Source of the DNA: Propionibacteriaceae bacterium
Lineage (GTDB): Bacteria; Actinomycetota; Actinomycetes; Propionibacteriales; Propionibacteriaceae
DNA: 64,000 bases
Reading direction: 5' to 3'
Assembly (NCBI GenBank): GCA_031267645.1
Contig: JAIRYW010000075.1
Span: 62,001-126,000, forward strand
Each line of letters begins with the position of its first letter. Position 1 is the stretch's first letter. Below, one piece after another: positions 93 through 17,885 of this stretch. Both the position numbers and the translations under genes were made by a program. Under the pieces are notes generated by a model. It saw only the letters and a program-made list of their open reading frames with translations. It made no database searches and was not told the DNA's origin.

Positions 93-1178
93 ATGACCAA
101 GATCTTGGTGTTAGGCGGCAGCGGCGTCTCCGGCCGGGCTGTCCTGCGGGCCCTCGGACGGACGCTGCCCGAGGCCGACCTGTCCTACACCGCCCGTCGG
201 CCCGACCCTCGGATCGAGGCCGCCTACGTCCATTTCGACAGCGCCGACCGGCCCGATCTGAGCCGGCGGACCCTGGCCGGCTTCGACCTGGCCCTGATCT
301 GCGTCGGCCCCTTCGAGCACACCCTGGCCTCGGTCCACCGGCTCTGCCTGGAGGCCGGCTTGGACTGTCTCGACATCAACGACTCGATCGACGCTCGACG
401 CGCCATCGTGGCCCTGGGCCCGGCCGCCGAGCGGGCCGGACGGACCGTCTTGACCGGCTGTGGGCTGTGCCCGGGCCTCAGCAGCTTGCTGCTGTGTGCC
501 GTGGCCGACCGGGACCAGGTGGTCGGCCTGCGCAGCCAGTTGCTGATCGGGGCCAAGCAGGAGCCCGGGGCGGCCTCCCTGCGCTCGATGTTCGCCACCT
601 TGGGCCAACCCCACCGCGTCCTGCGGCAAGGCCAGGAGACCACCCGGCCCAGCCTGGTCGAGCGGTCCGACCCGGCCGCCGCCACCGGGCCGGCGCCGTA
701 TCTGATCGGCTACGAATGCCCCGACCTGGACCGGGCGCCGACCATCTTCCCCGGCTTGAGCGACTACGACTACCGCGTCTGCTTCGCCCAACTGTCGGCC
801 GACCAGGTTGAGGGCCTGGCCCGGGCCAAACTGCTGCGTCGGCCCAGGCTGGGGGCCGGTCTGGCCCGTTTCGCCGCCCGGGTCGGTCGGCGTCGGGTCG
901 AGCGCACCGGGGCGGTGGCCCAAGAGGCCGTCTTGACCATCGAACTGACCGACGCGGACGGCCGGACCCGGACCGTCGGCGCCAGCGGCGGCTCCTCCTA
1001 CGCTCTGACCGCCGTCGTCGCCGCCACCGTCTGCGCCGCCCAGGTCGGCGGTGATTTGGTGCCGGGCCCCGGCGTCTTCGAACTGGTCGACCGGCCCGAG
1101 TCCCATCCGGCCCTGCTGGCCGCCTTAGCCGACCACGGCGTCCGGTGGGAGTTCGGGCCCGACGGCGGCTCGGCTTAA
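93..1178 (+). CDS. Saccharopine dehydrogenase-like NAD(P)-binding oxidoreductase
   Basis: A 361-residue protein opening with a Rossmann motif (VLGGSGVSGRAV, residues 5-16). This is the N-terminal nucleotide-binding fold of the saccharopine dehydrogenase / trans-acting reductase family. The ATG at 93 is chosen over an upstream start at 45 because AAAGGA sits just before it and the fold begins at once. The substrate is unknown. Family members reduce imines or thioesters, or make opines, and some act in siderophore or opine-metallophore pathways. The last 54 bases overlap the convergent methyltransferase gene. The neighbouring iron-box-controlled ECF operon makes a role in metallophore modification plausible, but this is inference. 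No iron box is visible in front of this gene within the window. Confidence 0.75.
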   Translation: MTKILVLGGSGVSGRAVLRALGRTLPEADLSYTARRPDPRIEAAYVHFDSADRPDLSRRTLAGFDLALICVGPFEHTLASVHRLCLEAGLDCLDINDSIDARRAIVALGPAAERAGRTVLTGCGLCPGLSSLLLCAVADRDQVVGLRSQLLIGAKQEPGAASLRSMFATLGQPHRVLRQGQETTRPSLVERSDPAAATGPAPYLIGYECPDLDRAPTIFPGLSDYDYRVCFAQLSADQVEGLARAKLLRRPRLGAGLARFAARVGRRRVERTGAVAQEAVLTIELTDADGRTRTVGASGGSSYALTAVVAATVCAAQVGGDLVPGPGVFELVDRPESHPALLAALADHGVRWEFGPDGGSA

Positions 1179-1949
1179 CACCGCCAGCAAGACCAGGCCG
1201 GCTTGGCGCTCGGCCGTGACCGTGAGGCCGGCTCCGGCCACCAGATCGTCGAACTCGGGGCGGGGGAAGACCCGGTGGCCGAATTTGCCCAGGACCTGGC
1301 TGTCGACGCGGGCGTTGATGGCCGGGTTCTCCCGGAAGGTCTGGCACAGGACCAGCCCGTCCGCGGTCAGGCTGGCCGCCACCTGGGCCAGGACAGCGGC
1401 CGGGTCGTCCATCTGATGCAGGCAGCCGCAGATCCAGATCTCGGCCGCCGGGCCGGGCAGGTGACGGGTCAGCTCCTTGGCGTCGGCCACCGCGAAGTCG
1501 AGTGCGGCGGAGCTGGGTCCGGCCGCCTGGGCCAGGCGGCGGGCTTGTTCGACGGCCGGGGCGGACCGGTCCAGGCCGAGCACTCGGTCGCCCCGGTGGG
1601 CCGGGTCTTGGGCCAGCCGGCGGGCGAACCAGCCGGTGCCGCAACCGAGGTCGACCAAGAGCCGGCCGCCGGCGGGAGAACCGTCCTGGGACGGGACGTC
1701 CTTCGGATGGACGTCAACCGGAGGGAGCTCCGGCGGCCCGTCCTCAGTTCCGCGGCGGTCGGGTCGGTCGGCTTCGGCCGGGCTCGGGCTGGGGGTGGCC
1801 TGGGCCGCCAGCTGGCGCAGGCGGTCGTGGATCGACTGGTAGTCGGTCTTCTCTTGGGCGAAGCCGGACAGGAAGCGGCTGTGGACGTGCCGTTCGTAGA
1901 GGCGCAAGAAGAGACGGGATTGGAAGACGCGGTGCGACAGGGAGGCCAT
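1125..1949 (-). CDS. Class I SAM-dependent methyltransferase
   Basis: A 274-residue cytosolic enzyme with motif I LLVDLGCGTGWFARRLA near residue 95, an acidic motif II (VLGLDRSAPAV), a motif III-like stretch (DFAVADAKEL), and a later QMDDPAAVLAQ segment. This is the normal order for a small-molecule methyltransferase of the UbiE/Methyltransf_11 type. AGAAAGGA precedes the ATG. It starts 54 bases after the fused ECF transporter gene on the same strand, so it is probably the third gene of the iron-controlled operon. Its 3' end overlaps the opposing oxidoreductase gene by 54 bases. The N-terminal 75 residues include a Pro/Ser/Asp-rich stretch between the start helix and the SAM fold. The acceptor substrate is unknown; a siderophore or metallophore is a guess from context. 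Confidence 0.8.
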   Translation of the reverse strand: MASLSHRVFQSRLFLRLYERHVHSRFLSGFAQEKTDYQSIHDRLRQLAAQATPSPSPAEADRPDRRGTEDGPPELPPVDVHPKDVPSQDGSPAGGRLLVDLGCGTGWFARRLAQDPAHRGDRVLGLDRSAPAVEQARRLAQAAGPSSAALDFAVADAKELTRHLPGPAAEIWICGCLHQMDDPAAVLAQVAASLTADGLVLCQTFRENPAINARVDSQVLGKFGHRVFPRPEFDDLVAGAGLTVTAERQAGLVLLAVLSRAAVGPELPPDAVVG

Positions 1950-2003
1950 GGTGGGTCCTTTCTGATGGTCGCTGATCGACGGTCGATGCCTGGCCTGGAT
2001 CCC

Positions 2004-5000
2004 TCAGCCGCCTCCGAAAGGCAGACAGGCCACCCCGGCGGCCAGTCCGGTCAACCCGACGGCGGCGCTGTCGGCCAGCCGCCAGCGGTAGGGACGCTCG
2101 AGGGTGCGGGTGGGGTAGGCCCCGAAAGCCCGCGCCGTCATGGCCCACGCCATCCGTTGCGAGAAGCGGATGGCCTGGGCCAGCAGAGGCAGGCTGACCG
2201 CCCAGGGCCCGCTCAAGGCCAATCCGATCCGACCCAGCGGACCGGCCGGGGCGCGCCGGCGGAGGCTTTGGGCGGTTCGGATCAGGTGGCGCTGCTGGTT
2301 CAGGTAGACGAACAAGGTCAGGCTGGACAGGGCGGCGAAACCCGGACGGTAGGGCAGCTTGAAGTGGGTCACGACGGCCTCGACCCAAGCCCGCGGACCG
2401 CTCAGCTGGCCCGCCACCATGGCGCTGGTGAAGACGACCGCGATCCGCAGGCCGTGGCGGGCGGCCGGGCCGATGGCCTGGGTCCAGTCGGTCGGGGCCC
2501 CGGAGCTGGGGCCGTAGAAGTGGCCGCGCAGGGAGATCAGCCCGAACAAGGCGGCGCAGGCTGTCACCAACAGGAGACGGCCGGGCACCAGGCTGGGCCG
2601 GCTGGACGAGGCCAACAGGGCCAAGGCGCTGAGGCCGAACAGCCCGATCAGGCCCGGCAGGCTGGGAGCCAGCAGGGCCGCCAGCACGAAGGCCAGCAGC
2701 CCGATCAGGCCCACGCCGGGGTCCAAGCCAGCGAAGAAGCTGGGCCGGGTCGGTGGGGCCGGGGAGATGGTGGCGGACCCCGCGGCCGGCTGGGTGGGCC
2801 GGGTCGGTTCGGAGATGGTTCGGGGGGATGGTTGGGTGGGACTGGATGACTCCGGGACGGGTCGGCCGGTCGACTGAGTGGGGTGGGATAGTTCTGAAAT
2901 GGTCTCCGCAGCCGGTCGAGTGGGGTGGACGGCTGGCGGGGCGGTCTCTACGAGTGGCTGGGTGGGGCTGGACGGCTTCGGTGCGGTCCGCTCGGCCGGT
3001 GGTCGGGTCAGGGCGACCAAGTGGGCCGGCGGCGGCCTCAGGCCGGCTCGTCGGAACAGCTCCGGTTGGGCCAGGATGGCCCGGGTCGGACCGCTGGCCA
3101 AGACCCGGCCCTGGGCCAAGACGGTGACCTGGTCGGTCCGCTCGGCCACCAGTTCCAAATCATGGGTGGCCAGCAGGACGCCGGCCCCGTGGGCGGCGTA
3201 CCGCCGCAAGGAGGCGGCCAATTCGGCTCGGCCGGCCCGGTCTTGGCCCGCCGTCGGTTCGTCCAAGACCAGCAGGGGGCGGTTGGCGGCCAGGGCCAAG
3301 GCCAAGCTGAGCTGGCGTTTCTGACCGCCGGACAAGAGGAAGGGGCTGACCGATCGGCTCTCGGTCAGACCGTAGGCGGCCAGCAGGTCGCGCCGTTGGG
3401 TCGGATCGAGCGGCCCAGACTCGGAACCGCCGGCCCAAGCGGATTCGAACTCGGCCGCCAGGGTGGTTTTGGTGAACTGGTTCTCCGGGTTCTGGCAGCA
3501 CAGCCCGACCGAGTCCCGCCGTCGGGCCGGCTGGCCGTCGGCCCGCCAGAACTGGACCCGGCCGGACCGGGGGCGGACCGCCCCGGTCACAGTCGACAAC
3601 AAGGTGGTCTTACCGGCGCCGTTGGCCCCGACCAGGGCGTGGACCGAACCGGCCCGCAGTTCCAGGTCGGCCGCGCTCAGACGGGGTCGGTCGGGCGATC
3701 CGACGCTGACTCGGTCCAGCCACAAGAGCAGAGCTCCGGGGCCCGGCTCGGCGGCGGCTGCGGTCTGGTCGGGGGCGAGGGGATCCGGTCCGAGGCGGTC
3801 GTGCGGACGGTCGGGTTCCAGAGGGGCGTGCGGCCGGTCGGGTTCCAAGGGGTCGGTTTCGTGGAGGTCGTGCGGCCGGTCGGCTTCGAGGGGGGTGTCG
3901 GTCTGGTCGGCTTCGAGGGGGGCGTCGACCTGGTCGGGTTCCAGGGGGTCGGACGCGAGGGGGTCGGTTTCGTGGTGATGGTACGGCTGGGCGGGTCCGA
4001 GGAGGCTCTCGAGCTGGCCCGGTTCGAGCCGGGCGTCCAGCTGCTCGGCGGACAGCGGACGGCCGACGGCGTGGCCGGCCTGGGTCAGCCGGCGGGCCAG
4101 GCGGACGAACAGAGGCAGATCGATCCAGTCGGCCAGGGCGGCGGCCTGGTCGCCGTACAACAGCTCCAGCGGGGATCCGTCGCCGGCCAGGCGGCCCTGG
4201 CGGTCGAGCACGACCAGCCGGTCGGTCGAGCCGAGGACGGCGTCCAAGCGAGTCTCGACGCAGACCACGGCCTGGCCCCGGTCGGCCAGCTGGCGCAAGA
4301 GGGCGTAGACCGAGCGCCGGCCGACCGGGTCGATGTTGGCGGTGGGCTGGTCCAGAACCAAAACCGGGGCGCCGCTGGCCACGCCGCAGGCCAGGGCCAG
4401 CCGCTGGCGCTGTCCGCCCGACAGCGTCCAGGGGTCGCGTCGGGCCAATTCGGCCAGACCGCAGACGGCCAGGGCGTGGGCGGTCCGACTGCGGATCAGT
4501 TCGACCGGCTGGCACAGGTTCTCCAGGGTGTAGGCCACCTCCTGCTCGACCGACCCGGTCAGGACCTGGGCGTCCGGGTCCTGACCCACCAGGGCCACCG
4601 TGCCGACCACCAGAGCCAGCCCGGCGTCCGCCAATTCGACTTGGGCGATGGTGACTGAGCCCTGGTAGACCGCTTCGACGGCATGGGGGATCAGGCCGGC
4701 CATCAGCGCCGCCAGGCTGCTCTTGCCGCAGCCGCTCGGTCCGGTCACGACTGTCAACTGGCCGGGCGCGGGCGTCAGACTGAGCCGCTGCGGAGCCCAG
4801 GTCGAAGAGCCGAGATGACGGACGGAGACGCCCTCCAATCGGAGCGGCGGATCGGTCGGCGCTCCAGCGGTTCGACCATCGGCCGGCGGTCCGGCGGTTC
4901 GACTATCGGGCGGCAGAACGGTCTGGCCATCGAGTGGTTGGGCGGTTTGGCCACCAGGCCGTCCAGCGGTTTTGCCATCGGGTGGTCCAGGGGTCTGGCT

Positions 5001-5114
5001 ATCGGGTGGTCCGGCGGTTCGGCCACCGGGCGGCACAACGCTCTGGCCGTCGGGCGTCCGGGCGGCCTGATCCGGGGGCGGGGCGGTCGAGTCGAGGACG
5101 GCCGATCGCTTCAC
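2004..5114 (-). CDS. Fused ECF transporter: ATPase-ATPase-T permease (A-A'-T)
   Basis: About 1036 residues. It begins with GTG overlapping the S-component stop (GTGA), a sign of translational coupling. The order is: Pro/Gly repeat leader (about 1-85); first CbiO-type ATPase with Walker A GPSGCGKSS (about 123) and signature LSGGQRQR (about 228); acidic repeat linker built on PLEPD/PLEAD units (about 375-465); second ATPase with GANGAGKTT (about 493) and LSGGQKRQ (about 590); Pro/Thr repeat linker (about 700-785); and an EcfT-like membrane domain with several hydrophobic segments to the C terminus. ECF importers normally encode these three parts separately. With the S component upstream this is a complete importer in two polypeptides. 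The iron box upstream and the IrtAB-like pair nearby suggest a metal, siderophore or haem-like ligand, similar in layout to the mycobacterial mptABCDEF locus as I recall it. Confidence 0.88.
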   Translation of the reverse strand: MKRSAVLDSTAPPPDQAARTPDGQSVVPPGGRTAGPPDSQTPGPPDGKTAGRPGGQTAQPLDGQTVLPPDSRTAGPPADGRTAGAPTDPPLRLEGVSVRHLGSSTWAPQRLSLTPAPGQLTVVTGPSGCGKSSLAALMAGLIPHAVEAVYQGSVTIAQVELADAGLALVVGTVALVGQDPDAQVLTGSVEQEVAYTLENLCQPVELIRSRTAHALAVCGLAELARRDPWTLSGGQRQRLALACGVASGAPVLVLDQPTANIDPVGRRSVYALLRQLADRGQAVVCVETRLDAVLGSTDRLVVLDRQGRLAGDGSPLELLYGDQAAALADWIDLPLFVRLARRLTQAGHAVGRPLSAEQLDARLEPGQLESLLGPAQPYHHHETDPLASDPLEPDQVDAPLEADQTDTPLEADRPHDLHETDPLEPDRPHAPLEPDRPHDRLGPDPLAPDQTAAAAEPGPGALLLWLDRVSVGSPDRPRLSAADLELRAGSVHALVGANGAGKTTLLSTVTGAVRPRSGRVQFWRADGQPARRRDSVGLCCQNPENQFTKTTLAAEFESAWAGGSESGPLDPTQRRDLLAAYGLTESRSVSPFLLSGGQKRQLSLALALAANRPLLVLDEPTAGQDRAGRAELAASLRRYAAHGAGVLLATHDLELVAERTDQVTVLAQGRVLASGPTRAILAQPELFRRAGLRPPPAHLVALTRPPAERTAPKPSSPTQPLVETAPPAVHPTRPAAETISELSHPTQSTGRPVPESSSPTQPSPRTISEPTRPTQPAAGSATISPAPPTRPSFFAGLDPGVGLIGLLAFVLAALLAPSLPGLIGLFGLSALALLASSSRPSLVPGRLLLVTACAALFGLISLRGHFYGPSSGAPTDWTQAIGPAARHGLRIAVVFTSAMVAGQLSGPRAWVEAVVTHFKLPYRPGFAALSSLTLFVYLNQQRHLIRTAQSLRRRAPAGPLGRIGLALSGPWAVSLPLLAQAIRFSQRMAWAMTARAFGAYPTRTLERPYRWRLADSAAVGLTGLAAGVACLPFGGG

Positions 5115-5743
5115 GGGGTCTCCGTCGGCCCAGTCCCTTGGCCCAGCCCGGCTCGACGCAAGGCCCGGGCTAAGCGGAGGGCGGGGATCAGACAGATCCA
5201 ACAAGAGGCCACCCCCACCGCCACGGTCAGGGCGACCAGCCCGGCGGGGGCGTGGGCCACCCCCAGGGCCCGGGTCGAGAAGTAGCCCATGAAGGCCCCC
5301 AACAACCCGGCCGCCAAGGCGTACAACCACCAGTCCCAGCGGCGGTAACGGGTCAGCAGGAAGGGGGCTTCGAGCAAGGCCCCTTCGAGCGCCAGGGCGG
5401 CGATGGCGCTGGGGCCGAAGGGAGTGGTCAAGGCGCTGACCACACCGATGGTCAGACAGGCCAGCATGGTCACCCCGGGCCGCTGGAGGAAGATCAGGGG
5501 GAACAGGCAAGGCAGCATCCAGATTCCCAGCGTCGCCGCCACCAGGGCCACATTGGCCAGGCCGGCGGCCAGTTGGAGATAGGTCAGGGGCACCACCAGG
5601 ACCGACCCGGCCACGCCGATGGCGGCGGCCGTCATCAGAGTCGAGGTGGTCAATCCCCGGCCGGTCGCCCGATTCGAGCCTCGGACCGGCTGGTCCGCCT
5701 GCGGGGGCCGCTCGATTCCCGCCTCCGGTCGCTTCGACTCCAT
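5111..5743 (-). CDS. ECF transporter S (substrate-binding) component, MptD-like
   Basis: A 210-residue membrane protein with about six hydrophobic segments after a polar 30-residue N terminus. Examples are TAAAIGVAGSVLVVPLTYLQ and the helices around LIFLQRPGVTMLACLTIGVV. The size and pattern fit ECF S components, which set ligand specificity for a shared or dedicated A-A-T module. AGGAGAG precedes the ATG at good spacing. It is the first gene of the operon, and the IdeR box lies 65 bases upstream. The ligand cannot be read from sequence. Iron control argues for an iron-related ligand rather than a vitamin, although YkoE-type thiamine S components look superficially similar. Confidence 0.8.
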   Translation of the reverse strand: MESKRPEAGIERPPQADQPVRGSNRATGRGLTTSTLMTAAAIGVAGSVLVVPLTYLQLAAGLANVALVAATLGIWMLPCLFPLIFLQRPGVTMLACLTIGVVSALTTPFGPSAIAALALEGALLEAPFLLTRYRRWDWWLYALAAGLLGAFMGYFSTRALGVAHAPAGLVALTVAVGVASCWICLIPALRLARALRRAGLGQGTGPTETP

Positions 5744-5807
5744 CGCCTCTCCTAGACCCGACCGGGTCGCTGGCCGTCAAGGGGCCGGACCCGATTTCCA
5801 TACATCC

Positions 5808-5826
5808 TTAGGTTAGGCTAACCTAA
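5808..5826. promoter_or_regulatory. IdeR/DtxR iron box upstream of the ECF operon
   Basis: TTAGGTTAGGCTAACCTAA is a perfect 9-1-9 palindrome matching the known IdeR/DtxR operator. It lies 65 bases before the S-component ATG, where a repressor would block the leftward promoter. The next rightward gene start is far away, so control of the ECF operon is the simple reading. Confidence 0.9.
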
Positions 5827-6033
5827 CCGTCAGGACCAGGAAACGCCAGCTCGGTCGAGAGAGGGCCGTCGTCGTCCCTGGTCCGACAGGCGGCCTCGGG
5901 GGCGCGTCCGATTGCTCCGGTCACGTGCCCCCGGCCCGCCCCTCTGTCAGGTCCCCCCCGTCCGCTGTCGCGTTGGCTGAGACCGTTCCGAATCAGACCG
6001 CGTCCACCGGCGCGCCGCCGGCCGAGCGGTCAC

Positions 6034-6136: not shown

Positions 6137-6141
6137 GGCGG

Positions 6142-7635
6142 CTACGAGACGGCGGGCCCCGCCGGGGCCGGGAAGTCACGCGCCACCAGACCGGCGGTGT
6201 TGTAGGCCGCCACGGCGTCCAGCTCCAAGGTCGAGGCGGCCGACTCGAAGCCATTGACGTAATACAACCCCTGCGCCAACTTGAAAGGCGGCGGTTCGAC
6301 GGCCGGCCGTAGCACCGGGTAGGCGCCGCGCCAGTGGAAGCGGCCGATCTCGGCCACCTGGTCGAAGACGCGCCGAACCTCCTGGTCGTCCAAAGGCTGG
6401 TCGACGGTGAAGAACTTGTAGATGCGGCACTGGTGGAGCGGCGAGAAGCCGGTCACGCCCAGGGAGCAGAAACGGGCTTCGGGGGTGTCGGCCACGAAGA
6501 CCATGCTGGGCAGGCCGGACTCCGGCGGCAGACCGAAATAATCCCGTGACGGCTGGCCGGCCACCAAGGTGACGTGGACCGATTGGTAGTCGCGGGCGGC
6601 GTACGGCGCAGGCCGCCCGTCCACTGTCAGAGCGATGTCCGACAGCTCCAAGGGAGTGGCCAGGACGACGGCGTCGAAGACCTCCTCGGCTCCGCCGGCC
6701 GTGGTCAGCCGAACCGCTCCGGAGCCGGCCTCGACGCGGTCGACCGCCGTGCCCAGGCGCAGGTCGACGCCCAACTTGGCCAAGGCCTTGGCGAACAAGG
6801 TCTGATTGCCCTCGGCCAAGGCGTAGAGGGAGCCGCCGGCCAAACCGGCTCCGGCCAGGCCGACCTCGCCGGCCAGGGCGTTGAGGCCGGACCCTTGGGT
6901 GTACATATTGCGGGTGATGCCGGCCAGGACCTCGGCCACGAAATCGTCCCGCGCCCCCTCTTCGCGCAGGGCCTGGGCCAAAGAGCGCTCCTGATAGTGG
7001 CGCAGACCCAGCCGGTCCAGCAACTGGCCGGTGCTGTCGAAGACCTCGCCGTCCAGCTGGAGGCGGTAGATCCGATGCCAAGCCCGGGCCAGCTTGCGGG
7101 TGGCCAAGGTCACCCGGAGGGCGGATTTGATCCCGTAGGAGCGCAGCACGCCGAGGCCGAGCGAGGCCATGGCGGCCTTGGTGGTCAGGGTCAGGCGTTG
7201 GCCGTTCCAGAAGCCGAAGATCTCGTCGTCGCCGTCCAGCTGGACGCCGCCGCGGCCCGGCTCGAGTCCGGTCAATTCGAGCAGGGCCTTGATCCACAGG
7301 CCGGTCGAATGCAAGACCGTGGCGCCGACTTCGACCGTGGTGCCGGCGAAGTCGATCTGGTGGGCCCGTCCGCCGGCCACTGGCTCCCGCTCGTAGACGG
7401 TGATGGAGGCGGTCGGACCGTAGACCTGGCGCAGGCGGTAGGCGGCCATGGTCCCAGCCGCACCGGAGCCGACCACGGCGCAGCGTGGCGGGGCGCCGAG
7501 GTGCGGGACGGAGTCGGCCGGACCGGCAGGACGGGCCGGGCTGGTCGGACTGGCTGGGCTAGCCGGGCTGGTCGGACTGGTGGGGCTGGTCGGACTGGTG
7601 GGGCTGGCCGAGCTGACGGGGCTGGAAACGGTCAT
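6142..7635 (-). CDS. FAD-dependent oxidoreductase, prenylcysteine oxidase / amine oxidase-like
   Basis: A 497-residue flavoprotein. After a Ser-Pro-Thr repeat leader (about residues 8-40) comes the dinucleotide motif CAVVGSGAAGTMAAYRL (about 50-66) followed by YEREPVAGGRA, typical of the phytoene-desaturase/amine-oxidase superfamily. The segment with SGLNALAGEVGLAGAG followed by a Glu-Gly-Asn turn resembles the prenylcysteine oxidase (lyase) signature around its GAVSLAG and EGGN elements. The ATG at 7635 overlaps the MFS stop (ATGA), so the two are coupled. The upstream part of the same frame lies over the MFS gene and is not coding. The stop is TAG, the only clear TAG terminator among the intact genes here. 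The substrate is unknown; a lipid, prenyl or tetrapyrrole compound is possible. Confidence 0.75.
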   Translation of the reverse strand: MTVSSPVSSASPTSPTSPTSPTSPASPASPTSPARPAGPADSVPHLGAPPRCAVVGSGAAGTMAAYRLRQVYGPTASITVYEREPVAGGRAHQIDFAGTTVEVGATVLHSTGLWIKALLELTGLEPGRGGVQLDGDDEIFGFWNGQRLTLTTKAAMASLGLGVLRSYGIKSALRVTLATRKLARAWHRIYRLQLDGEVFDSTGQLLDRLGLRHYQERSLAQALREEGARDDFVAEVLAGITRNMYTQGSGLNALAGEVGLAGAGLAGGSLYALAEGNQTLFAKALAKLGVDLRLGTAVDRVEAGSGAVRLTTAGGAEEVFDAVVLATPLELSDIALTVDGRPAPYAARDYQSVHVTLVAGQPSRDYFGLPPESGLPSMVFVADTPEARFCSLGVTGFSPLHQCRIYKFFTVDQPLDDQEVRRVFDQVAEIGRFHWRGAYPVLRPAVEPPPFKLAQGLYYVNGFESAASTLELDAVAAYNTAGLVARDFPAPAGPAVS

Positions 7636-10623: not shown

Positions 10624-10796
10624 AGTCCCGGTTTGACAGCGAATGGCACAGCTCTTGACCGAGCGGCTCCAGCCAGACAGCATGGCTGCCAATCCCGTTC
10701 TGCCCGGGGCCGCTTCGAGGCGGTGGGCGGACTGGGCTCGGTCCGGCTCGAAGGAGCGCCGGGTCGAGCAAGCCCACTATCCAAAGGAGGATTACG

Positions 10797-12320
10797 ATGG
10801 GGACTGAGAGTCAATCACACGTCCTGGTGTTGGACGAGGGCACCACTTCGACTCGGGCGGTCTTGTTCGACGCCGCCAGCCGGGTGGTCGAGACCGCCGC
10901 TCTGCCGCTCGACATCGACGCCAAGCCGGACGGGCGGACCGAGCAAGACGCCATGGAGCTGTGGCAGAAGTCGCGCCAGGTGCTGGCCGAGGTGGCCCAG
11001 CGGGCCATTCGGGCCGGCCGGCCCATCGCCGCTTTGGGCATGGCCGCCATGCGTACCTCGACCGTGCTGTGGGACCGTGCCACCGGTCAGCCGGTGGCGC
11101 CGCTGGTGAGTTGGCAGGACACCCGCTGCGGCGAGCAGGCCGAAGGCTTGCGTTCGACCTGGGGGGAGAGGGCCGACCGGACGAGCGGTCTGCACATCGG
11201 TCCGGACAACGTGCCCCTGCACCTGAGCTGGCTGCTGCGCCACGATCCCGAACTGCGGCGGCGGGCCGAAGCCGGCCAGCTGTTGGCCGGCACGCCGGAC
11301 AGTTGGTTGGTCTGGCACTTGACCGGCCGCCCGGAGTCCGGTCCGACTCTGACCTCGACCTCTTGCGCCAGCTCCAGCGGCGGCATGGACCGCGATCGCC
11401 AGGATTGGTGGGTCGAGTTCTTCGAAGAGCTCCAGGTGCCGCTGTCCCTGATGCCCCGGATCCTGCCCGACGACGCCGACTTCGGCCTCACCCGGGCCGA
11501 TCTGATCGGGTTGGAGACGCCGATCCGTAGCATCATCGGCGATCAGACGTCGGCCCTGTACGGACAGGGCGGCTTCGAAGCCGGCTCGGTCAAGTGCACC
11601 CACGGCACCGGCAGTTTCATCGACTTCAACATCGGGCCCGATCCGATCGTGCCCGGCCAGGGCTTGGATTGCCGGGTCGGTTGGCTGACCGACCAAGCCA
11701 AGGCTTACGTCTTGGAGGGTGGCTCGTTCGTGACCGGCTCCGGCGTCGATTGGCTGGTGAACGGACTCGGCGTGCTGGAGCAAGCCGCTTTGATCGACCA
11801 GACCTACGCCCAGGCCGACCCGGCCGCGGGCTTGGTCTGCGTGCCGGCTCTGGCCGGGCTGGCCGCCCCTTATTGGGATTCTCAGACCCGCGGTTTGCTG
11901 ATCGGCTTGGAGCGGGGCACGACCAAGGCCGACGTCGTCCGGGCCACCTTGGACGGCATCGCCCACTCCATCAGCGACGTGCTCGAGGCCATGTCCGACT
12001 CGGCCGGCGTGGCGCCCAAGCTGATGCGTTTGGACGGCGGTCTGTCGCGCTCCGACACCCTGCCCCAGTTGCAGGCCGACCTGATGCAGATCCCGGTCGA
12101 ACGGGCCGCCCAATCGGAGTTCATCACCGCCCGCGGGGCGGGGTGGGCGGCCGGTGTGGCGGTCGGCTTGTGGGACAGCCCCCAGGCGGCCGACGCCACC
12201 AAGGAGGCCGGCGTGGTCTTCGAACCTCGCATCAGCCCGGCTCAGCGCGACGCCCGGCGGGAGGTTTGGCGCGACGCCGTCGGACGTACCCTGGGTTGGC
12301 GACGGGCGGAGTCGGCCTGA
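10797..12320 (+). CDS. FGGY-family carbohydrate/polyol kinase, glycerol kinase-like
   Basis: A 507-residue cytosolic kinase with the two-domain FGGY layout. The N-terminal phosphate motif is LDEGTTSTRAVLFD, and GDQTSALYGQ carries the catalytic Asp region. THGTGSFIDFN and LDGGLSRSDTLPQLQADL are the C-terminal ATP-side motifs. A very strong AAAGGAGG (10783-10790) precedes the ATG. It resembles glycerol kinase overall, but the segment corresponding to glycerol kinase NQRETTVVWD reads AAMRTSTVLWD. The Arg that binds glycerol is kept while the neighbouring Glu is Thr. True glycerol kinase activity is therefore doubtful, and another polyol or triose is possible. The glycerol-1-phosphate dehydrogenase-like gene follows after 31 bases, so the two probably form one pathway. 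Confidence 0.85.
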   Translation: MGTESQSHVLVLDEGTTSTRAVLFDAASRVVETAALPLDIDAKPDGRTEQDAMELWQKSRQVLAEVAQRAIRAGRPIAALGMAAMRTSTVLWDRATGQPVAPLVSWQDTRCGEQAEGLRSTWGERADRTSGLHIGPDNVPLHLSWLLRHDPELRRRAEAGQLLAGTPDSWLVWHLTGRPESGPTLTSTSCASSSGGMDRDRQDWWVEFFEELQVPLSLMPRILPDDADFGLTRADLIGLETPIRSIIGDQTSALYGQGGFEAGSVKCTHGTGSFIDFNIGPDPIVPGQGLDCRVGWLTDQAKAYVLEGGSFVTGSGVDWLVNGLGVLEQAALIDQTYAQADPAAGLVCVPALAGLAAPYWDSQTRGLLIGLERGTTKADVVRATLDGIAHSISDVLEAMSDSAGVAPKLMRLDGGLSRSDTLPQLQADLMQIPVERAAQSEFITARGAGWAAGVAVGLWDSPQAADATKEAGVVFEPRISPAQRDARREVWRDAVGRTLGWRRAESA

Positions 12321-12351
12321 ACGGCCTTCTGAACGATGAGAGGAAGACGCC

Positions 12352-13830
12352 ATGACTGACCGACTGGAGGGGTCGCCGTCCGTTCCGACGGAGCGGCTGA
12401 TCGAGTTCGACCCCGGCGACCTGCCTGGTTTCTACCAGGCCGTCAGCCAGGTCTCTGGCCGCGACCGGGCTCTGTCCATGAGCCAGATCCGGCTCGGTCC
12501 GGACGCCTTGGACGACTTGGTCGAGCTGGTCGAAGCCGGCGGCCGGACGCAGTCGGTGGCCGTGGTGATGGACGACGTGGCCATGAGCCGGGGCGGCCTC
12601 GATCTCAAACCCGAGGTCGTGCGCCGCCTGGCTCGGGCCGGGTTGGGTCCGCGGCCGTTGATCTTGTCCGATCCTCACGGCCTGCACACCACGGCCCAGC
12701 AGGTGGCCGAGTTGACGCGACGGCTACGGCCGGGCGATGTCGTGGTGTCGGTCGGATCGGGCACCGTGACCGACATCAGCAAGCACGCCGTCCACACCTT
12801 CGAGCAGTCCAACCCCGGCTTGAGCCTGCGCCACGTGGCTGTGGCGACGGCCAATTCGGTCGGGGCCTACTGTTCGCAGCTGGCCGTCGTCACCATCAAC
12901 GGGGTCAAACGGACTCTGCCCTCCCGGCTGCCGGACTGCCTCATTCTGGACACCCAGATCTTGGCTGACACGCCGCGGCCGTACGCCCTCGGCGGGGTCG
13001 GCGACGGGGCCGTCGGCTGGTGCTCGCTGGGTGACTACCGGTTGGCCAGTTGGTGCGGTCTGGGCCGTTGGGAGCCCTTGTCGCCGCTGGTCTTCCTGCC
13101 CGGGCTGCAGGCCTTCTTGGACCAGGACCCCTCCTTCACCGAGGGTGGACTGGCCACGGCCGAGGCCATGGCGCGCAATCTCAGCGCCGCCGGTTTCGTC
13201 ATGAGTTTCGCCGGCGAGTCGGCTCCGGCCTCGGGTTTGGAGCACGTCACCAGCCACATGTTGGACATGGCGGCCGACCACCACGGCCGGCCCATCGGCA
13301 ACCACGGCGAGCAGTGCGGGCTGGCCACCGCCTTGGTGCTGTTGGTGTACCGCCATCTGCTGACCGAATTCGACCCCAGCCAGATCAGGCCAGCCGACCT
13401 GGCGGTCGATCGGGTGGCGGCCGAGCGGCAGGTGCGCCAGGTCTTCGACCCGATCGATCCCAGCGGCCAGATGTCTCAAGAGTGCTGGAGTGATTTCTCT
13501 GCCAAATGCCAGGCTTGGGAGGACAACCGCGACCAGGTCTGGGCGGTGTTGCAGGATTGGCCGGCCCGGGTCCGCGAACTGTCCGGCTTGGTGGCCGACC
13601 CCGAGCGCTACATCGCCGCCTTGGCCGCCACCGGGCATCCGTTGTCCTTCCGCGACGTTCCGCCCGGCTTGCCGGACGACCAGGTGCGCTGGGCTTTCAG
13701 CCACGCCCGCCTGATGCGGCGCCGACTGTCCGTGGCCGACTTCCTCGGCTTCCTGGGCCAGTGGGACGATCGCTTGGTCGATCGCATCCTGGGCCAGTTC
13801 GAGGAGTTGTGCCAACGTCACTCCACTTGA
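12352..13830 (+). CDS. sn-glycerol-1-phosphate dehydrogenase-like (AraM/EgsA family)
   Basis: A 492-residue member of the iron-containing alcohol dehydrogenase/DHQ synthase superfamily. The nucleotide-binding stretch GDVVVSVGSGTVTDISKHA is near residue 125. The metal ligands are expected in SGLEHVTSHMLDM and HHGRPIGNHGEQCG (about 292-322), the pattern seen in glycerol-1-phosphate dehydrogenases. GAGGAAG precedes the ATG, and it is cotranscribed with the kinase. Archaeal EgsA makes the ether-lipid backbone; bacterial AraM proteins act on the same reaction but their physiology is less clear. The exact substrate is inferred from family only. The protein is longer than the roughly 390 residues usual for AraM, with an N-terminal extension and a longer C terminus. 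Confidence 0.78.
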   Translation: MTDRLEGSPSVPTERLIEFDPGDLPGFYQAVSQVSGRDRALSMSQIRLGPDALDDLVELVEAGGRTQSVAVVMDDVAMSRGGLDLKPEVVRRLARAGLGPRPLILSDPHGLHTTAQQVAELTRRLRPGDVVVSVGSGTVTDISKHAVHTFEQSNPGLSLRHVAVATANSVGAYCSQLAVVTINGVKRTLPSRLPDCLILDTQILADTPRPYALGGVGDGAVGWCSLGDYRLASWCGLGRWEPLSPLVFLPGLQAFLDQDPSFTEGGLATAEAMARNLSAAGFVMSFAGESAPASGLEHVTSHMLDMAADHHGRPIGNHGEQCGLATALVLLVYRHLLTEFDPSQIRPADLAVDRVAAERQVRQVFDPIDPSGQMSQECWSDFSAKCQAWEDNRDQVWAVLQDWPARVRELSGLVADPERYIAALAATGHPLSFRDVPPGLPDDQVRWAFSHARLMRRRLSVADFLGFLGQWDDRLVDRILGQFEELCQRHST

Positions 13831-13966
13831 TGATCGGGGCCCGGCCTCAACACACTCCTAGGGCCGGGCCGCGAGTCGCACCTGTCGAGTGGAGAGCCTC
13901 GGGTCGGCCAGCACGACTCGTGGCCGCCGTCCGGGCGGCCGGCCCGAGGCCCAGTTCGATTTGAAT

Positions 13967-13985
13967 TGAGGTTAGCCTAACCTAA
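13967..13985. promoter_or_regulatory. IdeR/DtxR iron box upstream of the IrtAB-like pair
   Basis: TGAGGTTAGCCTAACCTAA matches the box at 5808-5826 except at the second base and the central base, which is G/C in the consensus. It overlaps a plausible promoter with TAAGAT at 13990-13995. The transporter GTG is about 150 bases downstream. The rest of the 306-base gap shows nothing else clear. Confidence 0.88.
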
Positions 13986-14136
13986 CTAATAAGATGCCGG
14001 TGTTGGACCTCACTGCCTCCGGGCCGGCTTAGCCGGCCGGGGCCGCCAAGTCCCCGGCGTCGACCTCGACCACGGCCCGTGGTCGGCGGCAGGCCACGGC
14101 CCAGCGCGACGCACCAGCGATAGCGAGGCCCAGGCA

Positions 14137-16020
14137 GTGACGACATCCCCCGACGGCCGACCGGCCGACCCGACCAGCGATCCCCCCGACTCCACGGCCA
14201 CTGAGCCCAGCGCCGATCCCCCCGACCGTTCCACCGCTCAGCCGCCGGCCACCGATCTCTTCCGAGTCGTCCGCGGCCGTCTGGCCTTGATCGTCGCCCT
14301 CAGTCTGATCGGAGCCGTCACCAGCGTCGCGCCGCTGATCGGCGTGATCGAACTGGCGCGGGCGCTCTGGCCGGGGCTGTCCGGGCAGCCGGTCGACCGG
14401 GGCCGGGCCTGGGCCGCCGTGGCCCTGGCCGGCGGGGCCCAGGTCTTGTCCTTCGCCAGCGCCGGCTTGTCCGGTTTGGTCAGCCACTTGGCCGACGGGG
14501 ACCTCCAGCTCGACCTGCGCCGACGCATCGTGCGCCATCTGCGGGCCCTGCCGCTGGGCTGGTTCGACGCCCGCTCCTCCGGGGCGGTGCGCAAGGCGAC
14601 TGAGAACGACGTCTCGGCCCTCCACCAACTGGTGGCCCACGCCATCCAGGACTTCATCACCGCCACCGCCGTGCCCTTGTTGTCCTTGGTCTACCTCTTC
14701 GCCACCTCCTGGCGCATGGGCCTGGTCTGCTTGGGGCCGATCGTCGTCACCGTCTTCCTGTACGCCGCCATGATGCGCGGCGGAATGGAGAAATACGCTC
14801 AGTACGACGCTTCCCTGACCCGGCTCAACGCCGCCACCGTGGAATACGTCCACGGCATCGCGGTGGTCAAGACCTTCGGCCAAGCCGGCCGCAGCCACAC
14901 CCGCTACCGCGACGAGACCGACCAATTCGTCCATTTCTACGACGGTTGGATGCGCGAGACATCGGTCGCGGCCTCCTTCCTCCAATTGGCCACCTCGCCG
15001 GTCGTGGTCCTGGTCTACCTCTGCCTGGCCGGGACTGGTCTGTGGGCCCTGGGCCAGGTCCGAGTCATCGACCTGCTGCCGGCCCTGCTGTTGGGCCTGG
15101 GCCTGACGGCCCCGCTGCTCAATCTCGGCTTCACGGCTCAGTTCTTGCGCGACGCCGACAAGGCCCGCCGTTCGCTGCGGCAGTTCTTCGCCCAGCCGGT
15201 CATGCCCCAGCCCAGCCAGCCGGTCAGCCCCGACGGTCACACCGTCCAGCTGGAGCGAGTCGATTTCAGCTACGACGGCGCCCAGTCCGTCTTGCGCGAC
15301 ATCGCCGCCAGCTGCGCTCCGGGCACCGTCACCGCCCTGGTCGGCCCCTCCGGCTCCGGCAAGTCGACGCTGGCCCGGCTGGTGCCCCGGTTTTACGACG
15401 TCCAGGCCGGTTCGGTCAGTCTGGGCGGCGCCGACGTGCGCCAGATCGCGGCCGCCCGGCTCTACGCCGAGGTCGGATTCGTCTTCCAAGACGCCTATCT
15501 GCTGCGCGCCAGCGTCCGTGACAACATTCGTCTGACCTGCCCGGAGGCGACCGCGGACCAGATCGAAGGGGCGGCCCGGGCGGCCCAGATCCACGACCGG
15601 ATCCAGCGTCTGCCCCGGGGCTATGACTCCGTCATCGGCCAAGACGCCCACCTGTCCGGCGGCGAGGCCCAGCGTTTGACCATCGCCCGCGCCCTGTTGA
15701 CCGACGCCCCCATCTTGGTCTTGGACGAGGCCACCGCCTTCGCCGACCCGGACTCGGAGGCCGCCATCCAAACCGCCCTATCGGCCCTGGCGGCAGAACG
15801 TACCTTGCTGGTGATCGCCCACCGCCTGCACACCGTGACCGGGGCCGATCAGATCTTGGTGCTGGACTCCGGCCGGGTGGTCGAGCGCGGCCGCCACGCC
15901 GACCTGGTCCAAGCCGGCGGTCTGTACCAAGACCTCTGGCGGCGCCACCGCCGAATGCGGTCCGACCAGGAGGCTGAGACCGGCCGCCCCGTAGGCGCGA
16001 CGGCGGAGGTGGCCCGATGA
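14137..16020 (+). CDS. ABC half-transporter, IrtA/YbtP-like (iron-siderophore type)
   Basis: A 627-residue half-transporter of exporter fold. A Pro/Asp-rich N terminus (1-40) is followed by six membrane helices (about 45-330), including LPLGWFDARSSGAVRKATENDVS as the intracellular coupling region, then an ATPase domain. Walker A is GPSGSGKST (about 405), the signature LSGGEAQR (about 505), and LVLDEATAFADPDSE is Walker B. The start is GTG with a weak GAGG site. It overlaps the next gene by ATGA. IrtAB and YbtPQ have this fold but import ferric siderophores. The iron box upstream supports an import role, although export of a siderophore cannot be excluded. No siderophore-interacting reductase domain is present at the N terminus, unlike mycobacterial IrtA. 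Confidence 0.85.
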   Translation: MTTSPDGRPADPTSDPPDSTATEPSADPPDRSTAQPPATDLFRVVRGRLALIVALSLIGAVTSVAPLIGVIELARALWPGLSGQPVDRGRAWAAVALAGGAQVLSFASAGLSGLVSHLADGDLQLDLRRRIVRHLRALPLGWFDARSSGAVRKATENDVSALHQLVAHAIQDFITATAVPLLSLVYLFATSWRMGLVCLGPIVVTVFLYAAMMRGGMEKYAQYDASLTRLNAATVEYVHGIAVVKTFGQAGRSHTRYRDETDQFVHFYDGWMRETSVAASFLQLATSPVVVLVYLCLAGTGLWALGQVRVIDLLPALLLGLGLTAPLLNLGFTAQFLRDADKARRSLRQFFAQPVMPQPSQPVSPDGHTVQLERVDFSYDGAQSVLRDIAASCAPGTVTALVGPSGSGKSTLARLVPRFYDVQAGSVSLGGADVRQIAAARLYAEVGFVFQDAYLLRASVRDNIRLTCPEATADQIEGAARAAQIHDRIQRLPRGYDSVIGQDAHLSGGEAQRLTIARALLTDAPILVLDEATAFADPDSEAAIQTALSALAAERTLLVIAHRLHTVTGADQILVLDSGRVVERGRHADLVQAGGLYQDLWRRHRRMRSDQEAETGRPVGATAEVAR

Positions 16021-17885
16021 TACGGCTGCTGATGTCTCTGACCCAGGCCCGGGGTCGTGCCCTGCTGCGCAGCACCCTGGTCTGGGCGATCGTGACCGCC
16101 GTCCTGCAAGGGCTGGCCTTCTTGGCCCTGGTCCCTTGGCTGAGGGCCCTGCTGTCCGGGGCGGGCTCCGCCAGCGGGGTCTGGTCGGCCGTCCTGGCCG
16201 GCCTCGGTCTGGCTTACGGCCTGGCCTTCTGGCGGGGCAACCAGTCCGGCAACGCCGCCGCCATCGAGGTCCTGTCCGACTTGTTGAAGCGCTTGGGCGA
16301 CCGTTTGGTCGAGTTGCCGACCGGTTGGTTCGCGGCCGACCGGGCCGGTGAGACGGCCGACGTGGCCAGCCGGGGGATCGTCTTCGCCTCGGCCGCCCCC
16401 TACGCCATCCTGTGCCGGATCCTGACCGCCTTCATCACTCCGGCCACGGTGCTGCTGGGGACTTGGTTGATCGATTGGCGGGTGGCCGCGGCCATGACCG
16501 CCTCGGTCCCTGTCATCTGGTCGGTCTACCGCTGGCTGGCTCGGCGGCTGGCGGCGGCCGACCAGGAGCATGTGGCGGCCATCGCCGAGGCTTCCAACCG
16601 AGTCATCGAGTTCGCTCGGGTCCAGCCGGCCCTGCGCGCGGCCGGCGACAATTCCATCGCGACCGAATTGGTCGATCAGGCCCTACGCGGCCAGCACGCC
16701 GCCGCCAAACGTATGCATCTGACCGGCGGGGCCGGGCTGGCCCTGTTCGGCGGCGTCGTCCAACTGGCCGTCATCGCCGTCCTGGTGGTCGGCTCCGGCC
16801 TGGCCCTGGCCGGGCGCCTGGACATCGCCACCCTGTTGCCGCTGCTGGTGCTGGCGGTCCGCTTCACCGAGCCGATCTGCCATTCCGGAGCCCTGGGCGG
16901 CGGTTTGAGCGTGGCCACCAACACCTTGAAGCACATCCGAGGGCTGATCGACCATCCCAGCCTGCCCGAGCCGGCGGTCGGCGTCCCCTTCCGCGGGCGC
17001 GGCCCGGCCGGCCAGTCGGCCGAGGGCGCGGTCGGGGATGATTCGGTCGATGAACCGGCCGCCGATCCCGCGCTTCGGCTGGTCGAGCGAGCCCGTCCCG
17101 GCTCCGACTCGGCCACTCAGCCGGAGGACCATACCGTCCGCTTCGACCGGGTGACCTTCGGCTACGGCGGCGCCCCGGTGCTGCGCGACCTCTCCTTCGA
17201 GGCTCCGGTCTCGGCCATGACCGCCATCGTCGGACCGTCCGGCTCCGGCAAGACCACCATCACGCGGCTGATCGCCCGCTTCTACGACCCCGAGTCGGGC
17301 CAGGTCTCGATCGGACGGCGCCCCCTGCCCGAGCTGGGCAGCGATTGGATCGTCCAGGCCGTGGCGCCGGTCTTCCAAGACGTCTACCTCTTCGACGGCT
17401 CCATCTTGGACAACATCTGGTTGGGTCGGCCGGAGGCCAGCCAGGAGGAGGCGCGGCGGGCCGGGCGTCAAGCCCGGGTGGACGAGATCGTGGAACGGCT
17501 GCCGGCCGGTTGGGACAGCCGGGTGGGCGAAGGCGGGACCAACCTCAGCGGCGGCGAGCGCCAGCGCGTCTCGATCGCCCGGGCCTTGCTCAAAGACGCC
17601 CCCATCGTGCTGTTGGACGAGGCCACCGCCGCCCTCGACTCGGCCAACGAACAAGCCATCCAAGAGGCCTTCACCGCTCTGCGGCCGGGTCGCACCTTGA
17701 TCGTGGTGGCGCATCGGCTCAGCACCATCGCCACCGCCGACCGCATCATCATGTTGAACCAGTCCGGCGGCATCGCCGAACAAGGGGCCCATGAGGAGTT
17801 GCTGGCCGCCGGCGGCGACTACGCCCGCTACTGGTCCGAACGGGTCCAGGCCGCCGGCTGGCGGCTGGCCAGCCATCCCCAGTGA
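16017..17885 (+). CDS. ABC half-transporter, IrtB/YbtQ-like
   Basis: A 622-residue partner of the preceding half-transporter, coupled by ATGA. Six hydrophobic helices occupy about residues 15-310. A charged, variable linker (about 325-370) leads to an ATPase domain with Walker A GPSGSGKTT (about 405), signature LSGGERQR (about 509), Walker B IVLLDEATAALDS and the switch His in VVAHRLSTI. The pair would form a heterodimer in the cytoplasmic membrane with both ATP sites apparently intact. An ECF importer and this pair both under IdeR boxes mirrors mycobacterial mpt-type loci as I recall them, suggesting joint use of one iron-related ligand. Confidence 0.85.
   Translation: MIRLLMSLTQARGRALLRSTLVWAIVTAVLQGLAFLALVPWLRALLSGAGSASGVWSAVLAGLGLAYGLAFWRGNQSGNAAAIEVLSDLLKRLGDRLVELPTGWFAADRAGETADVASRGIVFASAAPYAILCRILTAFITPATVLLGTWLIDWRVAAAMTASVPVIWSVYRWLARRLAAADQEHVAAIAEASNRVIEFARVQPALRAAGDNSIATELVDQALRGQHAAAKRMHLTGGAGLALFGGVVQLAVIAVLVVGSGLALAGRLDIATLLPLLVLAVRFTEPICHSGALGGGLSVATNTLKHIRGLIDHPSLPEPAVGVPFRGRGPAGQSAEGAVGDDSVDEPAADPALRLVERARPGSDSATQPEDHTVRFDRVTFGYGGAPVLRDLSFEAPVSAMTAIVGPSGSGKTTITRLIARFYDPESGQVSIGRRPLPELGSDWIVQAVAPVFQDVYLFDGSILDNIWLGRPEASQEEARRAGRQARVDEIVERLPAGWDSRVGEGGTNLSGGERQRVSIARALLKDAPIVLLDEATAALDSANEQAIQEAFTALRPGRTLIVVAHRLSTIATADRIIMLNQSGGIAEQGAHEELLAAGGDYARYWSERVQAAGWRLASHPQ

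Follow-up and report, generated by a model that had tools for sequence, protein, structure and literature searches.

A probable IdeR-controlled thiazoline-siderophore cluster with an ECF importer in a Propionibacteriaceae bacterium

Textbooks present ECF transporters as importers of vitamins and Ni/Co. The locus analyzed here raises the question of what such a transporter would carry when it stands behind an IdeR box and shares its surroundings with an IrtAB-like pair. It lies in a stretch of 64,000 nt from a Propionibacteriaceae bacterium (GCA_031267645.1, JAIRYW010000075.1 positions 62,001-126,000), hereafter the window. Its main features are as follows:

93-1178, + strand: saccharopine-dehydrogenase-fold reductase, last gene of an NRPS operon, 48 bases past the NRPS stop
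1125-1949, - strand: class I SAM methyltransferase, 54 bases after the ECF gene
2004-5114, - strand: ECF ATPase-ATPase-EcfT-like fusion, whose GTG start at 5114 overlaps the S stop by 4 bases
5111-5743, - strand: ECF S component (PF09819, YkoE-like fold)
5808-5826, no strand assigned: IdeR box of the ECF operon, sequence TTAGGTTAGGCTAACCTAA, 64 bases before the S start
13967-13985, no strand assigned: IdeR box of the IrtAB-like operon
14137-16020, + strand: IrtA-like fused permease-ATPase without SIP domain
16017-17885, + strand: IrtB-like fused permease-ATPase

Iron boxes and transporter genes

The original prediction had placed two IdeR boxes ahead of an ECF importer operon and an IrtA/IrtB-like pair. 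Both 19-bp boxes are present, with 1-2 mismatches depending on strand in a pattern match over the window, while 100 dinucleotide shuffles yielded 0 matches. Across the whole 2.85-Mb genome, just four sites have three or fewer mismatches to the pattern, and its reversed form has 0 matches. Besides the two boxes in the window, these sites lie at C50:53675, 8.3 kb left of the window, and at C66:10460, elsewhere in the genome. The four boxes carry 0-2 mismatches and precede the PPTase/FAAL-NRPS-reductase genes, the ECF genes, the IrtAB genes and, at C66:10460, a separate gene for a siderophore-interacting protein (SIP). The genome encodes one DtxR/IdeR-type protein, whose 19 PDB matches are all DtxR/IdeR chains (E 4e-63 to 1e-46) and which keeps the TTEM and EACxWEH residues that we take to be iron ligands. 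Taken together, the four boxes, the single regulator and the NRPS operon with a box of its own support the predicted control of the cluster by iron through IdeR.

The ECF operon largely agrees with the proposal. Its S component passes PF09819 (56.8 bits, cut-off 25.2), with no NCBIfam match, and its AlphaFold model (pLDDT 84.7) points to an ECF S fold, the first Foldseek match being YkoE (E 4e-5, TM 0.74/0.78). In family scans of the fusion, run on 2004-5066, two ATPase stretches were found by ECF models, below the ECF equivalog cut-offs and above the cbiO subfamily cut-off; the EcfT-like part is assigned by conservation only, as the Pfam EcfT model did not fire. The IrtA/IrtB-like pair is also present, and the best PDB match of its first member is the mycobactin importer IrtA (E 1e-125), but the SIP domain found in mycobacterial IrtA is missing from this protein, the match starting at IrtA residue 251. 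For the IrtB-like protein, the best two-component matches, YbtQ/IrtB (291 bits), were outscored by eukaryotic ABCB proteins (350 bits, two copies counted). The genes that separate the two boxed transporter operons, for an FAD enzyme, an MFS protein, a split RhuM and two glycerol-type enzymes, show no sign of belonging.

A methyltransferase gene following the ECF genes, with a saccharopine-dehydrogenase-like gene converging on it, was correctly read as well. The methyltransferase is probably part of the ECF operon, and a relative (38%) occurs in a related, broken cluster of another genome (G063). The reductase has no Pfam or NCBIfam match, and its model has a saccharopine/carboxyspermidine dehydrogenase fold; for saccharopine-dehydrogenase-like proteins in such clusters, PMC10127202 describes the role as unknown. 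Reductase matches in 13 other genomes of the phylum (E 1e-14 to 1e-16) were rejected as cluster members: in eight stretches (L111-L118) from 7 of the 13, probes found no ECF, IrtAB or NRPS, and gave a generic AMP-ligase match in three stretches and a kinase match in three.

Biosynthetic genes left of the window

The operon that ends with the reductase begins outside the window:

from C50:53673, - strand, outside the window: phosphopantetheinyl transferase gene
C50:53675-53693: IdeR box between this gene and the fatty-acyl-AMP-ligase-like gene
C50:53807-55450, + strand, outside the window: fatty-acyl-AMP-ligase-like gene upstream of the NRPS
1-44, + strand: end of the NRPS gene (last codons and stop); whole gene G000:C50:55460-62044, 2194 aa

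The NRPS has the domain order carrier-Cy-A(Cys)-PCP-Cy-PCP-TE, and holds heterocyclization domains, a Cys-type A domain and a thioesterase with intact GxSxG. The A-domain residues D-L-Y-N-M-S-L-V, with positions mapped by eye on motifs, equal CtaC-Cys in Table 1 of PMC3672683. In the Cy1 motif DxxxxDxxS, N replaces the first D; a defect was considered and rejected, since L060 shows the same change, as do two motifs of a siderophore NRPS from Vibrio lentus. A plasmid search with the NRPS returned 420 records at E 1e-60, 0 of which covered 80% of the query. Neither an unannotated Pseudoalteromonas plasmid stretch nor a Tsukamurella salicylate cluster was informative.

The ligase matches FAAL/McyG-type structures at 214-150 bits (best nine) versus 74-66 bits for DHB or salicyl ligases, and is closer to FAAL models than to others, yet falls below the cut-offs of all of them; it therefore looks like a FAAL-type enzyme in the place of a salicyl/aryl-AMP ligase. 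The genome has two chorismate-binding enzymes, with no salicylate synthase among them: one is a TrpE by score, and the other reaches 255.9 bits for isochorismate synthase (cut-off 224.75) and 99 bits for salicylate synthase (cut-off 325). We noticed no thiazolinyl reductase of the Gfo/Idh type in the locus. An aryl starter keeps some plausibility, because an isochorismate synthase is present and Streptococcus equi is described as using salicylate that it does not make itself (PMC3672683).

By description, and not by direct sequence comparison, this gene set resembles the equibactin cluster eqbA-N of S. equi ICESe2 (PMC3672683), the best-known example of the kind, from a bacterium of horses. 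From that account, both have DtxR-family control, a PPTase, an AMP ligase, a Cys-type Cy/A NRPS in which one A domain serves several carriers, a saccharopine-dehydrogenase-like protein (EqbM), an ABC importer (eqbHIJ, which we read as ECF-like) and a YbtPQ/IrtAB-like pair (eqbKL). In the equibactin cluster the ligase is a salicyl-AMP ligase, the NRPS consists of two proteins and has the methyltransferase domain built in, the thiazoline reductase EqbF is encoded separately, and the thioesterase lacks its serine. Our cluster has a ligase of the FAAL type, a single NRPS whose thioesterase keeps GxSxG, a methyltransferase that stands alone, a fused A-A-T gene and boxes on separate operons. The genes seen in the window are probably the right-hand part of a thiazoline-siderophore cluster that belongs to the equibactin kind and is controlled by IdeR; the predicted replacement of the salicylate-type starter enzyme by a FAAL-type one would be new.

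Other known systems match less of this arrangement. The coelibactin, sorangibactin and mupirochelin clusters, as presented in PMC10127202 and PMC10080011, share a thiazoline NRPS, a saccharopine-dehydrogenase-like enzyme and a methyltransferase, and differ in their aryl (salicyl/DHB-type) starter, Gfo/Idh-type reductase and P450. A locus of this group on a plasmid of Streptomyces sp. NBC_01320 (L132) includes an IrtA-like ABC protein (43%), and its annotation lists no ECF. The original prediction had drawn a parallel to the mycobacterial mpt genes, which is borne out in gene content: the mpt/sid island of Mycobacterium avium subsp. paratuberculosis has IrtAB-like mptABC, cobalt-type mptDEF (read as ECF-like) and, by description only, adjoining NRPS, MFS and methyltransferase genes (PMC4298942). 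It fails in regulation, as mptABC is reported there to be under zinc/FurB and not IdeR control. The sifABCDE genes of Bifidobacterium breve were rejected as a relative, as they encode FtsX-type permeases and not an ECF importer (PMC5449479).

What the ECF importer would carry

The ECF and IrtAB genes recur together in other genomes, in line with a search that the original prediction had proposed. Among 16 S-component loci fetched in the window's family, S, ATPases/T, IrtA and IrtB are collinear in 10, and several of the ECF+IrtAB loci carry IdeR-like boxes; judged from these genomes, the family-wide ECF+IrtAB operon appears to be new. A plasmid search with the S component gave no match. In the open-access literature searched, we found nothing on ECF with IdeR, actinobacterial IrtAB+ECF, ECF with a nonribosomal metallophore, or Cutibacterium DtxR siderophores.

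The closest link between the importer and the biosynthetic genes comes from the MAG 'Bifidobacteriaceae bacterium isolate Pcl387_bin36' (G808), which has orthologues of the FAAL (58%) and the NRPS (53%). On another of its contigs (L126), the end of the NRPS is directly followed by the reductase (54% identical), the S component (60%) and the start of the ECF gene, all on one strand. Because the orthologous NRPS end and reductase run straight into the S component, the product of the cluster itself is the most likely ligand of the ECF; this narrows a ligand formerly left unsettled to a siderophore-type compound. There is no IdeR-like box on L126 itself, and the ECF need not be the sole importer in this genome, because Fec-type siderophore importer genes stand behind two of its three IdeR-like boxes. 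We consider it likely that the locus is a complete IdeR-repressed siderophore system that makes its own thiazoline product and uses the ECF as main importer.

Alternatively, the same cluster could use the IrtAB-like pair to export the new siderophore, leaving import to the ECF alone, a reading that deserves serious consideration although we favor it less. In S. equi, the small-colony (iron toxicity) phenotype still arose when eqbKL was deleted, cross-feeding pointed to a smaller amount of product in the medium, and the authors propose efflux (PMC3672683). Here, the missing SIP domain and the lack of any exporter candidate seen in the window part, except MFS gene 7632-9128, point the same way, while the match to importer IrtA speaks against it. 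So does the pairing of IrtAB with ECF elsewhere in the family: probes of 20-kb stretches around the other ECF+IrtAB operons found no NRPS, save a generic AMP-binding match in L097, and hence nothing that would need export; the same result also counts against the siderophore reading favored here. The two-stage path first suggested is not supported, as no finding calls for two membranes in series, and in S. equi most siderophore-dependent iron required eqbHIJ while the effect outlasted eqbKL deletion (PMC3672683).

A metallophore for zinc, copper or another metal, whether controlled by IdeR or with its control misread, seems improbable. It would fit the zinc-controlled mpt/sid island, a title in the references of PMC10127202 that names coelibactin a zincophore, and LC-MS suggesting zinc binding by mupirochelin (PMC10080011). 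Against it stand the four IdeR boxes, one of them ahead of a SIP gene, and the absence of a Zur-type palindrome with up to three mismatches from the window and from L007, a weak test with a simplified pattern.

Import of a vitamin (a thiamine precursor) or of Ni/Co, with coincidental neighbors, is very improbable, even though the S component has YkoE as its sole solved relative in sequence (E 0.011) and as its top match in fold, and the Pfam name of its family is ABC_cobalt. A vitamin is an unlikely ligand because of the contrast in riboswitches: TPP riboswitches precede 4/4 vitamin-type S paralogues and 0/14 of the window's type, which here has an IdeR box instead. In the S tree, the three rows with TPP riboswitches group apart from the others (100/100), their loci are without IrtAB, and the S component follows NRPS-reductase in L126. 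Least credible of all is haem, the ligand of the iron-regulated ECF importer LhaSTA of Staphylococcus lugdunensis, which is Fur-controlled and not described as part of an NRPS cluster (PMC7299338), as the S gene adjoins NRPS genes both here and in L126 and no haem gene was noticed among the named genes.

Proposed pathway and implications

Genes, boxes, domain order, the Cys code, the operon neighborhood and the orthologous NRPS-reductase-S run are read directly from sequence, whereas the response to iron, the structure of the product, the metal, the direction of transport and each enzymatic step are inferred. In the siderophore system that we favor, scarce iron would open the divergent promoter at the first box, with the phosphopantetheinyl transferase gene on one side and FAAL-NRPS-reductase on the other. 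The transferase would prime the NRPS, and the ligase would load the first carrier domain of the NRPS with an acyl, not a salicyl, starter. With one Cys-type A domain serving two carrier domains, the two heterocyclization domains would form two thiazoline rings. The reductase (93-1178) would convert one C=N to its reduced form, the methyltransferase may add a methyl group, and the TE would free a small acyl-thiazoline-thiazolidine acid. Having no phenol, the predicted compound would bind iron poorly unless a donor group came with the acyl starter. The second box would open the ECF operon, whose S component would bind the metal-loaded product in the membrane and whose A-A-T module would carry it in. 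The third would open the IrtAB-like pair as a second transporter of the same compound, either a parallel importer or an exporter, and the fourth the SIP flavoprotein that would free the iron.

A broader and more speculative idea, which we hold to be rather doubtful, is that YkoE-fold S components, fused A-A-T ECF genes and IrtAB form a widespread, unrecognized class of actinobacterial siderophore importers. Here its partner would be a lipid-tailed bis-thiazoline siderophore, which would remain in the membrane and pass to the S component from within the bilayer, the ECF doing what IrtAB does for mycobactin.

That an ECF-like importer is needed for siderophore iron was already known from equibactin genetics, eqbHIJ being required for most siderophore-dependent iron import in S. 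equi (PMC3672683). As far as we have seen, the case for a siderophore as ECF ligand otherwise rests on that one set of mutants; the present locus would add an independent genomic case from another phylum, and the Bifidobacteriaceae MAG a second genome with an S component behind siderophore genes on one strand. Within this family, S components of the metallophore type may be told apart from those of the vitamin type by a simple genomic test, an IdeR box with IrtAB versus a TPP riboswitch. A confirmed FAAL-type starter would make the compound a new type of thiazoline siderophore.

IdeR boxes and the genes left of the window

The two IdeR boxes of the original prediction are present and non-random (no match in 100 shuffles), and when the genome (2.85 Mb in 76 contigs, 98.6% complete) was scanned with up to three mismatches, the pattern occurred in only four places: the first, C50:53675, lies left of the window (itself C50:62001-126000), the second and third at window positions 5808 and 13967, and the fourth at C66:10460. 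The reversed pattern gave no match genome-wide at the same tolerance. The single DtxR-family protein returned by a PF02742 search has DtxR/IdeR chains as its PDB matches and retains the TTEM and EACxWEH segments, which contain the iron-site residues. In the 20 kb read to the left of the window, the first box sits between divergent genes for a phosphopantetheinyl transferase (PPTase) and an AMP ligase. The genes beside the first and fourth boxes are as follows:

PPTase (PF01648): minus strand; first ATG one base from the first box (C50:53675)
AMP ligase, 547 aa: start 113 bases from the first box, on the side opposite the PPTase
NRPS, 2194 aa: starts nine bases after the ligase and ends at window 44, 48 bases before the reductase start (window 93)
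Siderophore-interacting protein (SIP), 267 aa: 66 bases downstream of the fourth box (C66:10460); FAD_binding_9 and SIP domains

A separate SIP gene behind the fourth box fits an IrtA-like protein without a SIP domain of its own. As a side observation, the PPTase reading frame (stretch L007, 174-1673, minus strand) stays open to 499 aa, antisense across a GntR gene; this over-long frame perhaps marks an insertion border.

By Pfam, the NRPS holds one AMP-binding, two condensation-type and two carrier domains and a weak thioesterase (34.7 bits, cut-off 26.3), and a PNSL motif points to a third, N-terminal carrier domain. For the first of the two condensation-type parts, almost every PDB match is of the heterocyclization type (EpoB, BmdB, HMWP2/Irp2, PchE, and others; nine in all), and the second part likewise matches BmdB, Irp2, and EpoB. 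The corresponding motifs read NMIIADAAS (Cy1), DLLLADGAS (Cy2), and GWSVG (thioesterase). The A-domain specificity residues, located by eye on motifs around SFDLSIYD, TIWNSTP, LLMLSG, and SLGGATEGSVW, are D-L-Y-N-M-S-L-V, the same code as that given for the Cys domain of CtaC in Table 1 of PMC3672683. The genome encodes two chorismate-binding enzymes, one scoring as TrpE and the other lying above the isochorismate synthase cut-off and far under that for salicylate synthase. The nearest structures to the AMP ligase are 6ulx (214 bits; an "adenylation domain protein," presumably StsA-type), McyG (197), and a fatty-acyl-AMP ligase (FAAL; 185); salicyl or DHB ligases are distant (66 to 74 bits), and the top NCBIfam models are fatty-acid ligases, all under their cut-offs.

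The reductase and its relatives

In a fold search with the reductase model (pLDDT 87.7), the 25 leading matches (E 9e-19 to 7e-14) are carboxyspermidine, lysine, and saccharopine dehydrogenases plus two uncharacterised relatives. Since these dehydrogenases oxidise or reduce C-N bonds, the modelled fold would suit reduction of a thiazoline C=N. Outside actinobacteria, the fullest relative encountered is a 635-aa "hypothetical protein" (29% over residues 3-347) encoded on a Vibrio lentus plasmid. The cluster around it has annotations for salicylate synthase, NRPSs, and a TonB receptor, and its neighbour with a saccharopine dehydrogenase annotation gave no match to the reductase at E 1e-4. This stretch (L129, Vibrio lentus plasmid p1, 210001-251461) belongs to a conjugative plasmid, and its salicylate NRPS siderophore cluster includes both the annotated saccharopine dehydrogenase and the second, reductase-related protein, along with two Cy-type motifs that have N for the first D. 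SrbE, from sorangibactin biosynthesis, likewise has a saccharopine dehydrogenase-like annotation, and the product was lost when srbE/F/G were deleted (PMC10127202).

Close relatives of the reductase (E <=1e-20) occur in 2 of 197 family genomes including its own (26 at E 0.001), the same two among 391 genomes of the order (6 at 1e-9), and its own genome alone among 396 in the phylum sample (14 at 1e-14). The second family genome, from another genus, has a related locus (L045, G063:C1:1-20000) with PPTase (44%), NRPS (46%), part of the reductase, ABC genes, and methyltransferase (38%). This locus is decayed, with a stop codon inside the reading frame, one change of frame, and parts of Cy2/TE absent; no FAAL match was found there.

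Scanning contigs of other genomes yielded 11 loci, only one of them close (53%; remainder, 24-34%). It is contig L060 of the MAG "Bifidobacteriaceae bacterium isolate Pcl387_bin36" (G808), where FAAL (58%) and NRPS (53%) stand in the same order. A 3.4-kb contig of this MAG (L126), reached by reductase search, carries an NRPS end (47-55%) and the reductase (54%), continuing on the same strand into the S component (60% over 204 aa) and the start of the ECF ATPase (43%). A third contig ends beside an IdeR-like box (three mismatches) preceding a PPTase gene (42%). Genes for a Fec-type permease/ATPase set and for a FepB-like protein, functions taken from the sequences, follow the MAG's other two such boxes (again at three mismatches). 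Among the 18 genomes of its family, G808 alone holds a reductase relative at E <=1e-20. The IrtA query gave four ABC matches in G808; on the two contigs fetched, no link to the cluster was seen. Separately, in three loci of family f25 in the same phylum (L112, L113, and L115), a reductase-like gene (30-35% identity) is preceded at about 1 kb by an AMP-ligase-like gene on the same strand, a pairing that possibly represents another acyl-AMP pathway using such a reductase.

The ECF and IrtAB transport genes

The S component model (pLDDT 84.7) matches YkoE best (E 4e-5, TM 0.74/0.78), then, weakly, RibU. At E <=1e-6, relatives occur in 21 of 197 family genomes, counting its own. The sample holds 18 further genomes of the genus, several of them incomplete, and none gave a match. 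S, ATPases/T, IrtA-like, and IrtB-like genes are collinear on one strand in 10 of the 16 loci fetched (from the other 20 genomes); in L103 the contig stops within the IrtA-like gene, and the pair is missing from L104 and L107-L110. Boxes were found in 8 of 15 loci (L109 left out) within 350 bp upstream of S, with 0, 2, 3, 4, 4, 5, 5, and 6 mismatches, compared with matches at <=6 mismatches in 48 of 3,000 random 350-bp stretches from the same loci, true boxes included. The IrtAB-linked loci L095, L100, L102, and L103 showed no box at <=6 mismatches upstream of S (best, 8), and their operons may be under another regulator.

With Rfam, all four loci L107-L110 show a TPP riboswitch at 0.7-0.8 kb upstream of S, and none of 14 others does (L095-L106, the window stretch L008, and L126; the stretches for L103 and L126 are short). 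In L102 a cobalamin riboswitch lies 3 kb from S, and L104 has neither IrtAB nor riboswitch, its box having five mismatches. Of the 12 loci L095-L106, 9 encode ATPase-ATPase-T in a single reading frame, as the window does; L105 and L106 have a separate T, and in L103 one ATPase and T are seen. The three TPP rows group together (100/100) in a tree of 17 S components, where the window clusters with L126 (81/89), a placement subject to a long-branch warning.

Other genes were observed nearby:

6142-7638 (-): FAD enzyme of the prenylcysteine-lyase family (PF07156, E 4e-52)
7632-9128 (-): MFS transporter overlapping the FAD-enzyme gene, the pair directly upstream of the ECF box
9361-9819 and 9877-10368 (-): RhuM-family gene in two frames (profile parts 122-250 and 1-101), between the siderophore transport operons
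10797-13830 (+): two genes immediately ahead of the IrtAB box, one glycerol-kinase-like and one glycerol-1-phosphate-dehydrogenase-like, both under NCBIfam cut-offs; G1P enzymes are unusual in bacteria
30537-39299 (-): four-gene run of VWA_CoxE, DUF5682, AAA_5 (MoxR-like), and DUF4132, reminiscent of MoxR/VWA conflict-type systems
40094-41565 (+): AbiEi/AbiEii-type toxin-antitoxin pair

Relation to equibactin

Neither an IdeR-controlled ECF+IrtAB operon nor a FAAL-started thiazoline siderophore was met in the open-access literature searched. According to PMC3672683, eqbHIJ are required for most iron accumulation, and eqbKL are dispensable for it and possibly serve efflux; this equibactin genetics supports import of a siderophore by the ECF transporter. 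A Staphylococcus survey (PMC12709192) describes in S. lugdunensis an NRPS resembling that of equibactin, accompanied by an ECF importer, and gives its product as unknown. The proposed mechanism is strongest in its common control and gene order, and weakest in the choice of starter acid and in the part that IrtAB plays. The cluster linked to the window would work like the equibactin system and is probably its relative; it lacks one feature of that system, the aryl starter ligase.
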